Shown: positions 32,855-35,174 of the stretch, piece after piece
Numbering within the stretch: the stretch's first letter is position 1
Layout: every line of letters starts with the position of its first letter
Assembly: GCA_022822785.1 (NCBI GenBank)
Contig: JAJEAL010000009.1
Location: 1 to 44,409, forward strand
Reading direction: 5' to 3'
Source of the DNA: Candidatus Poribacteria bacterium
GTDB lineage: Bacteria > Poribacteria > WGA-4E > PCPOR2b
DNA length: 44,409 bases
Position numbers and translations under genes: made by a program
The notes under the pieces: generated by a model
What the model was told of the DNA's origin: nothing
Databases searched by the model: none
Seen by the model: the letters and a program-made list of their open reading frames with translations, nothing else

Positions 32855-34510
32855 TCATGTTATATCAGAAAGCTGTTGCAACTCAAACAACGGTCCGCGT
32901 CGCAAGAGGTTTGACAATCGTTTTGAAGTATCACCTCTCCTAGGTTCCATAGTTGTTCCTGTCTCCCTAAAAATAATATAGCCTTTCTGAAAATCTAGAG
33001 TCTTAATTCGCAGCTTAAATCTTTCTGACGAAAACTGACTCAGATCTAGCATGTATACTTCATATTTGCGTCCTTGCTCCCGTATGTCAGAGAGACTTGC
33101 ACGAACTAAATGAATAAGGCGTCCATCCATAAGTTCCCTGATTATACGATATTCCTCAGGATGGTCCTCTCTGTCTCGAAAGTCAATCCGGAAAAATGAA
33201 TAACTTTTTTCTTTACAAAATGACAGCAGCTGATCGAGACTCTTGATCCTATTTGACATACCTTCATTTAAAGCACTGTCCTCCTCTAGTTCTGAAATTT
33301 TGATCTCGGCTATCTCACTAGCAGATTTTCCAACATCTTGGACACCAACAAGTCGAGCCTTTTCTCTTGTTCGTGCTTGATTTATTGCGTTGGCACTCAA
33401 AGTAAGATAATCGCGTGGTACGGCTCCAGACGCGAGAACAAGCCGATCAAGTGCTGTAGGGGATAAAATATTTGACAGAGATGAAATTCCAACATGTTTG
33501 GCGTAGCTCAAAAAGACTTGCTCAAGGAAAGTCTTAGCTTGTGAAGGTTTTTCCAATGTTACATCCAAATCAATGTGATCCGCATCATGTCCAGTCTGCA
33601 GACCAAGGGGCGGCTTTGCTTGAAACCAGCGTGTGAGATGTCTAATTCCCGCGACTTTAAGCCACGCATCAGAATCACGCACCGCACTATGAACTAAATC
33701 CAAAAGCTTGGGCTGCTCTGCACTTGGTAAATAGTGGAGGTCATCTAGAAAGATATAAAATTGAGTTTCATTTGTATCAGCGAACCGACGAATGGTTTTT
33801 TGCATATAAGGTACGAGTCTGCTTGCTTCATCAGCAGAGATGTTTTGTTTTGCGAGCAGACTACTGGTATCATCTCGTAATTTTGAGACTAAGGTTAGGC
33901 TTTGAGGTGCGTTTCCTTTTTGTGAATAGAATACTTGCATTTGCTCGCATACATCTAGACAAATCCATACAAATATTCTCTCAATTGATTCTCTACTATG
34001 TGTGTGAATGTTTATCCAAGAGGTCAGACAGTCTTCAGCCTCAACACGGCGTTTTGCTTCAACCATGAGTGCTGTCTTCCCTGTACCTCGCCTGCCAAAA
34101 ATCAGATGATGCCGAGGCGTGATAGCTGTTAATATATTCTGAGCTGTATCAGAAACGTAGTCTAAGCTTGGTTGTGCTTCCGATGTCCTAGATCGGGATA
34201 TTAGAAGTTGAGCAAGCTCTATGGCTTTTGAATTCCGTACTCCATCCTTGATACGGGTTACCACATTTTTCACTTCTCGGTCGGCCTTACGCACAACCAC
34301 GAAACCGTTAAACCCTGTTCGGATAAGTTCAGGGTCAATAGAATTACCTACCATTGTAGCACTGTCGAAGTCATCTTCAGTAACATACACAGCGAAGATA
34401 CTTTCTTCTGGATAGTCTTTTCTTTCCATTGACTGTATTTCAATTCCGGCTTCAGAAAACCTGTTTTGAATAATAGTTTCGGTGTTTATCGGGAGTTGTA
34501 ATTGTATCAT
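32855..34510 (-). CDS. P-loop ATPase (AAA/STAND-like) of a two-gene module
   Basis: This is a 551-residue protein. An N-terminal segment of about 125 residues is unrecognised. Walker A GRRGTGKT is at 139-146, Walker B FYIFLDDLHYL starts at 251, and an arginine-containing sensor-like block is VAGIRHLTRW. The later helical region contains AVPRDYLTLSANAINQA, as in ORC/Cdc6-like AAA proteins, and the C-terminus (about 430-551) may hold a winged-helix-like domain. The ATG at 34510 overlaps the stop of the HEPN-like gene (ATGA) and has AAGGGG at good spacing; a GTG at 34519 is less likely. No nuclease or membrane motif is visible. It may be a defence or regulatory ATPase, but I do not recognise the exact family. 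Confidence 0.75.
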   Translation of the reverse strand: MIQLQLPINTETIIQNRFSEAGIEIQSMERKDYPEESIFAVYVTEDDFDSATMVGNSIDPELIRTGFNGFVVVRKADREVKNVVTRIKDGVRNSKAIELAQLLISRSRTSEAQPSLDYVSDTAQNILTAITPRHHLIFGRRGTGKTALMVEAKRRVEAEDCLTSWINIHTHSRESIERIFVWICLDVCEQMQVFYSQKGNAPQSLTLVSKLRDDTSSLLAKQNISADEASRLVPYMQKTIRRFADTNETQFYIFLDDLHYLPSAEQPKLLDLVHSAVRDSDAWLKVAGIRHLTRWFQAKPPLGLQTGHDADHIDLDVTLEKPSQAKTFLEQVFLSYAKHVGISSLSNILSPTALDRLVLASGAVPRDYLTLSANAINQARTREKARLVGVQDVGKSASEIAEIKISELEEDSALNEGMSNRIKSLDQLLSFCKEKSYSFFRIDFRDREDHPEEYRIIRELMDGRLIHLVRASLSDIREQGRKYEVYMLDLSQFSSERFKLRIKTLDFQKGYIIFRETGTTMEPRRGDTSKRLSNLLRRGPLFELQQLSDIT

Positions 34511-35031
34511 AGTATACACCCCTTACTTTGTAGGTAAATGCGAGTTGTGGACAGGAATAAATCTGCGTCTTTCTTGAGATCAAAGGCATCTTGCTTCCAC
34601 GATATATTTGATTTTGGATATGGCTCATAATCTGCACGATTTCTAAGATCGCGGGCGTCTTTTAACATATTTGACCAAGGCGCGCCAGGAGGAAAGTCTT
34701 TCGGTATATGTGATGGTAGCTTACTGTGTCCTTGATGATCATCGCCTCCATGAAAAACAAATGCACACGCTCGCATTGCATGATACATCGCGTAATAGTA
34801 TCGACTTATGGCACTTCGATAAAGGGGAGGTTTAGATCTGAGCAGCTTATTTGCGTCATGCCGGTGTTCATAGGCAAACCACCATCGATCGGAGGCAGCA
34901 CTGTTGATCAGTTGAGATATTGTTTGTCCGGAGTCCTTCTGGAGAGATACCCCCTCTTTCCAATCCTTAATTTGCTTATCGGTAGCCGTAGATAGACGAT
35001 TCAATCGATCATGGGGAAGAACTTGTGGCAT
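34507..35031 (-). CDS. HEPN-like (UPF0332-type) protein of a two-gene module
   Basis: This 174-residue helical protein has the UPF0332/HEPN-like core SAISRYYYAMYHAMRACAFV (73-92) followed by LKDARDLRNRADYEPYP. The motif is R-N-R-A-D-Y (130-135). The R-x4-6-H signature of ribonuclease HEPN proteins is not present, so catalysis is doubtful. GGAG precedes the ATG by seven bases. Its stop overlaps the ATPase start, which implies a fixed partnership, and a long palindrome lies 24 bp upstream. HEPN proteins pair with nucleotidyltransferases or ATPases in toxin-antitoxin and defence loci; whether this pair does so is inference. Confidence 0.75.
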   Translation of the reverse strand: MPQVLPHDRLNRLSTATDKQIKDWKEGVSLQKDSGQTISQLINSAASDRWWFAYEHRHDANKLLRSKPPLYRSAISRYYYAMYHAMRACAFVFHGGDDHQGHSKLPSHIPKDFPPGAPWSNMLKDARDLRNRADYEPYPKSNISWKQDAFDLKKDADLFLSTTRIYLQSKGCIL

Positions 35032-35054
35032 GGATTGACTCCGCCAACCAAAGA

Positions 35055-35110
35055 GCGACTTATGTCAGTGGTAGAAAGCTTTCGCGCTTAAAATCACTGG
35101 CATAAGTCGC
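35055..35110. repeat. Long palindrome upstream of the HEPN/ATPase pair
   Basis: The arms GCGACTTATGTCAGTG (35055-35070) and CACTGGCATAAGTCGC (35095-35110) pair with one mismatch over 16 bp, around a 24-base loop. It begins 24 bp upstream of the HEPN start codon, in the probable 5' untranslated region or promoter. It could be an operator, an attenuating hairpin or a palindromic repeat relic. Confidence 0.65.
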
Positions 35111-35174
35111 TAAGAGCATAAAATAGCTGTTTGGTAAAGTTTCAGCATCAACAAAACGTTTCGTTTATCATATA

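Follow-up and report, generated by a model that had tools for sequence, protein, structure and literature searches.

On a contig of 44,409 nucleotides from a Candidatus Poribacteria bacterium (hereafter the window), a gene for a HEPN-domain protein overlaps a gene for an AAA+ ATPase, and we lean, with modest confidence, towards the idea that the two form a mobile conflict module in which a HEPN RNase is the effector and the ATPase its regulator, probably serving abortive defence. This reading is based on the families and motifs of the two proteins, the coupling of their genes, their conservation, the existence of empty sites, purifying selection, and one defence-island context. A point against it is that only one distant homologue, from Paraburkholderia, provides such a context. 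Each half of the pair belongs to a known family, and none of the libraries searched names the pairing itself: PADLOC, NCBIfam and Pfam recognise it only in pieces, in agreement with the original prediction that the combination could not be named. The coordinates are given in Table 1.

Table 1. Features of the HEPN/ATPase gene pair and its borders (positions in the window).
Feature	Position	Strand	Remark
HEPN gene	34507-35031	minus	174 aa; PF05168 HEPN-T / UPF0332 (AF0298-like); predicted RNase effector
Y78-Y80 of HEPN	34792-34800	minus	equivalent of substrate-positioning Y40-42 of retron-Kva2 HEPN; gap-free versus 36ht_I
H102 of HEPN, candidate catalytic histidine	34726-34728	minus	equivalent of Kva2 H64; alignment to 36ht_I
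R130-N-R-A-D-Y135 basic motif of HEPN	34627-34644	minus	D where the canonical H is expected; HEPN-T rule from PMC3710099
ATGA stop/start overlap	34507-34510	minus	sequence; same overlap in L001 and L009
ATPase gene	32855-34510	minus	551 aa counted from ATG; distant ORC-CDC6-like P-loop AAA+
Walker A GRRGTGKT, residues 139-146	34073-34096	minus	translation
Walker B FYIFLDD, residues 251-257	33740-33760	minus	translation
G-x-V-P-R, residues 362-366	33413-33427	minus	VPRD invariant across four homologues
Palindrome arm	35054-35070		within the inserted segment
Palindrome arm	35095-35111		in older flanking intergenic DNA
8-bp direct repeat, distal copy	32867-32874		AGCTTTCT on the minus strand; empty-site alignment
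8-bp direct repeat, proximal copy	35073-35080		empty-site alignment

As predicted, the first protein is a helical UPF0332/HEPN-like protein: it matches PF05168 in Pfam (E = 3.6e-7, 30.8 bits versus a cut-off of 22) as well as the HEPN_IX profile of PADLOC (E = 1.1e-9), and its all-helical structure model (mean pLDDT 73.7) resembles AF0298 (PDB 2hsb), which ranks first among solved structures both by sequence profile (E = 9.8e-8) and by fold (Foldseek against the PDB, E = 9.7e-4). The RNase motif R-x4-6-H was not found in this protein; the site reads R-N-R-A-D-Y, with D replacing H. On this point the original prediction was right, but a lack of RNase machinery does not follow from it: the alternative histidine of the clade is present as H102. 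In AF0298-type HEPN-T proteins, the histidine of R-x4-6-H is missing and another histidine is conserved on the N-terminal side of the motif; according to a prediction made in 2013 by Anantharaman et al., this second histidine could form an alternative active site (PMC3710099). Moreover, for the type IX HEPN of retron-Kva2, which is also devoid of the classical motif, a 2026 preprint reports that H64, R122 and the substrate-positioning residues Y40-42 are needed for phage defence, and that defence is lost in the mutants H64A, R122A and Y40-42A (PMC13405049). Upon alignment of the profile of the window HEPN to the Kva2 protein (36ht_I, a weak database match with E = 0.05), Y78-80 fall on Y40-42 and H102 falls on H64 with no gap between them; this weak local match ends before R122, for which R130 and R132 are candidate equivalents. 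Across phage and Poribacterial HEPN proteins (alignment A5), H102, Y79, Y80 and R130 are conserved, and H102, R130, N131, A133, D134 and Y135 are invariant. In the case of the Paraburkholderia homologue, the histidine is placed on H99 by MAFFT but on H102 if the stretch between H-S-K and P-x-D-F-P is read without a gap, and we prefer the second placement. An alternative split active site like that of the AF0298/type IX clade is probable for the HEPN protein. The missing R-x4-6-H motif might also mean that the HEPN protein has no catalytic activity and serves as an RNA-binding or dimerisation subunit, with the ATPase as the active component; we consider this improbable, given the conservation just described, the essential role of the equivalents H64 and Y40-42 in Kva2 (PMC13405049), and an ATPase that matches no nuclease domain in Pfam. 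Taken together, the 2013 prediction and the Kva2 mutants make an active RNase likelier than a dead HEPN protein.

For the second protein, the expectation of a 551-residue ATPase with clear Walker A and B motifs was borne out: both motifs, as well as FLDDxH and VPRD, are kept across four homologues with identities as low as 28%. Residues G139, R140, R141, G142, G144 and K145 of Walker A are invariant down to the Paraburkholderia homologue, and FLDD and H259 across all four proteins; the G-x-V-P-R motif is presumably the sensor-2-like motif of STAND/ORC lids. A GTG is also present three codons ahead of the ATG. The protein matches PF24389 (ORC-CDC6-like; E = 3.4e-14, 53 bits versus a cut-off of 27) and PF13191 (AAA_16; E = 3.9e-10), with the Pfam matches lying mainly over the core, and the Paraburkholderia homologue stays just under the PF24389 cut-off (24.3 versus 27). 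Judged by these profile matches, the ATPase is a distant ORC-CDC6-like AAA+ protein. Its best stretch corresponds to positions 193-349 of the 571 positions of PF24389, whereas two other Poribacterial ATPases that also score above the cut-off of this family (L011 in G078:C36 and L012 in G032:C627) span almost the full profile (127-379 bits per piece) and have other neighbours. These two are located in runs with several uncharacterised genes, the L012 gene next to one that is HD-like and one that likely encodes a DNA methylase, and the runs are probable conflict systems in their own right. Two more specific identities of the window protein were rejected, ATPase_Sll1717 (NCBIfam score 32.7 versus a curated cut-off of 75) and the anti-phage protein DS41_1 (27.3 versus 370). 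The structure model of the ATPase is poor (mean pLDDT 42, too low for a fold search). Its architecture comprises an N-terminal alpha/beta domain, the AAA+ core and a C-terminal region that appears winged-helix-like as judged by eye; the N-terminal 75 residues are predicted to follow an alpha-beta-beta-alpha-beta pattern (pLDDT about 60-80).

The two genes were found on the minus strand with the predicted four-base ATGA overlap, which is retained in two other Poribacteria and by which the HEPN and ATPase genes are, as far as the sequence tells, translationally coupled. The ATPase is present in three out of 85 genomes of the phylum, each time with an adjoining HEPN gene, and the same gene pair is carried by one Paraburkholderia aromaticivorans plasmid (about 28% identity); the pair is thus conserved in all four genomes in which the ATPase was found. 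No ATPase homologue was detected in the phage and IMG/VR searches, and plasmid searches with either HEPN protein or with the Paraburkholderia ATPase yielded nothing beyond the Paraburkholderia aromaticivorans plasmid. A defence-island neighbourhood is seen for this plasmid copy, which sits inside a clear defence island with SIR2 and HerA, an Eco29kI-type restriction enzyme and its methylase (type II RM), Vsr, and an integrase, but not for the three Poribacterial copies, which lie among metabolic genes outside defence islands. In G015, the amidohydrolase gene has upstream of it what looks like a VapBC pair, a small gene and, after it, a gene for a PIN-domain-like protein (L001 4619-5768).

The pair could also be a plain toxin-antitoxin system for addiction or stress, with the HEPN RNase as the toxin and the ATPase as an antitoxin that has no phage-specific sensing. 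Gene order and ATGA coupling resemble those of HEPN two-gene modules, a HEPN protein of the MAE_18760 family and a ParA/Soj ATPase have been proposed as such a pair (PMC3710099), and in the NetFlax network HEPN stands beside an AAA ATPase antitoxin node (PMC10440598). Nevertheless, with its 551 residues, a lid and additional domains, the ATPase would be a large protein for a simple antitoxin, and the single informative context is a defence island; we regard this explanation as rather unlikely, and it overlaps with that of a conflict module.

In the window, the pair has a Rieske gene and an amidohydrolase gene as neighbours; in four congeneric species and a further genus of the family, these two genes enclose a site that is free of the pair. 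Joining the flanks and aligning them to the empty intergenic regions delimited a segment of 2198 bp (32875-35072) that is absent from the related genomes and bordered by 8-bp direct repeats; either an insertion with target duplication or a loss through recombination of the two repeats would account for this arrangement. The GC content of the pair is 42-44%, lower than that of the other genes of the window for which it was determined (48-55%). When the window is compared with G015, the pair shows 0.48 synonymous differences per site (pS) and the adjacent amidohydrolase gene 0.75, a saturated value; the lower divergence of the pair suggests its horizontal transfer between genera. The dN/dS values are about 0.08-0.13 for the HEPN gene, 0.08-0.19 for the pair and 0.02-0.05 for the neighbours, indicating that the pair is functional and under purifying selection but evolves faster than its surroundings. 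An accessory regulatory pair that serves the adjoining amidohydrolase and Rieske genes rather than a conflict is very hard to reconcile with these data: two genomes from different genera do have the pair immediately downstream of the same amidohydrolase gene, but the site lacks the pair in five of the eight family genomes that have this amidohydrolase, the GC content and synonymous divergence of the pair differ from those of the neighbours, and the neighbours in Paraburkholderia are unrelated. In G022, which has no pair, the gap between the amidohydrolase and Rieske genes (L022 2638-3139) holds about 500 bp with the internal repeats CTCCAACCTTC...CCATAATTTGTAG present twice; thus, the site varies in other ways, too.

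The palindrome that had been noted upstream of the HEPN gene is real and significant: it has 17-nt arms with 16 of 17 positions complementary and a 24-nt spacer, can be extended to 26-nt arms with 81% complementarity, and is the only such inverted repeat in the window, with none in 30 dinucleotide-preserving shuffles. It ends 22 bp before the start codon, not 24 bp as previously given. Its proposed role as an autoregulatory site is little favoured by what we found, and since it straddles the insertion edge, with one arm in the inserted segment and the other in flanking DNA shared with species that do not have the module, and since nothing comparable was found in front of the G015 copy, the palindrome is neither a core nor a defining part of the module. 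Several arm positions differ between the window and G019, two paired changes preserve complementarity, and both palindromes fold well as RNA. No intrinsic terminator was found in it, and an Rfam search gave no match. A genome-wide search returned the two arms as the only exact matches and three more with two mismatches, comparable to two for the backward control, so that the palindrome does not represent a repeat family. It may be a hairpin or operator of local regulatory relevance in the genus, or a by-product of the insertion.

Several known systems share individual traits with the pair. The type IX retron effector (retron-Kva2 HEPN, PDB 36ht; PMC13405049) also is a HEPN protein without R-x4-6-H but with the aligned YYY and a distant catalytic histidine; in contrast to the retron, the window pair is adjoined by no retron reverse transcriptase, msDNA RNA or winged-helix gene and has an ATPase instead. 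HEPN-T/UPF0332 proteins such as AF0298 (PDB 2hsb) and the HEPN-MNT toxin-antitoxin systems have the same HEPN clade and a two-gene layout, whereas here the partner is an AAA+ ATPase rather than a nucleotidyltransferase, and no MNT gene is adjacent. In the dyad of MAE_18760 and ParA/Soj, a HEPN gene is likewise next to that of an ATPase proposed as the antitoxin, but this HEPN belongs to another family with the canonical R-x4-6-H and the ATPase is of the SIMIBI type (PMC3710099). Finally, the DUF499/HEPN BREX-related (Hma) systems join HEPN to a STAND/ORC-Cdc6 AAA+ ATPase (PMC12839542); there, however, a HEPN domain of another family is fused to the ATPase and accompanied by methylase and helicase genes, none of which occurs with the window pair.

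In other Poribacteria, several HEPN-T genes have small proteins as neighbours: proteins of 87-102 aa are encoded directly beside HEPN genes (L042 1152-1415, minus strand; L043 1172-1480, plus strand; L047 1770-2078, minus strand), with an apparent alpha-beta-beta-alpha-beta pattern as in the N-terminal domain of the ATPase; those of L042 and L043 had no convincing match in Pfam or NCBIfam. The domain and the small proteins agree in fold pattern and position. In hhalign, P values of 0.067 and 0.042 were obtained, 8 of 200 column shuffles were equally good, and most pairwise tests were null; as the sequence tests are weak, homology is a lead only. It is tempting to speculate, albeit tentatively, that the N-terminal domain is equivalent to the small stand-alone HEPN-T partners, and that the HEPN RNase would be neutralised by a docking domain fused to an AAA+ sensor. 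In addition, three-gene runs consisting of genes for about 245 aa and about 170 aa and a HEPN gene were observed (L044 209-1884; L048 3-1613, plus strand); a similar alpha/beta stretch forms the end of the middle protein, and the runs are unnamed in the libraries searched. On two IMG/VR viral contigs (L037 1832-3002, L038 5139-6324), a phrog_17809 gene (257-264 aa) lies next to a HEPN gene of phrog_5176; both families are of unknown function and may constitute a phage-borne defence pair. A tblastn search with the L037 phrog_17809 protein added a single phage record, in which no HEPN gene is annotated.

For the conflict module, we infer the RNase activity, the physical contact, the trigger and the abortive outcome, and propose the following course of events. 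The HEPN protein would act as a dimeric RNase with a split active site made up of H102 and R130/R132, and Y78-80 would place the RNA. The co-translated AAA+ ATPase would bind the HEPN dimer and hold it inactive until it senses infection, whereupon HEPN would be released or activated. The freed HEPN could then cut cellular RNA, probably tRNA, so that growth would stop and the phage could not multiply.

The finding adds an unlabelled HEPN/AAA+ pairing. It also implies that HEPN-T proteins can be misjudged as inactive by the usual motif test: the same split site is needed for defence in a type IX retron. If the tentative equivalence of the N-terminal domain with the small partners is true, a docking domain joined to an AAA+ sensor would be a general way of placing split-site HEPN effectors under the control of ATP. 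If the module is confirmed, the switching-on of non-canonical HEPN RNases would become testable in a simple two-gene system.
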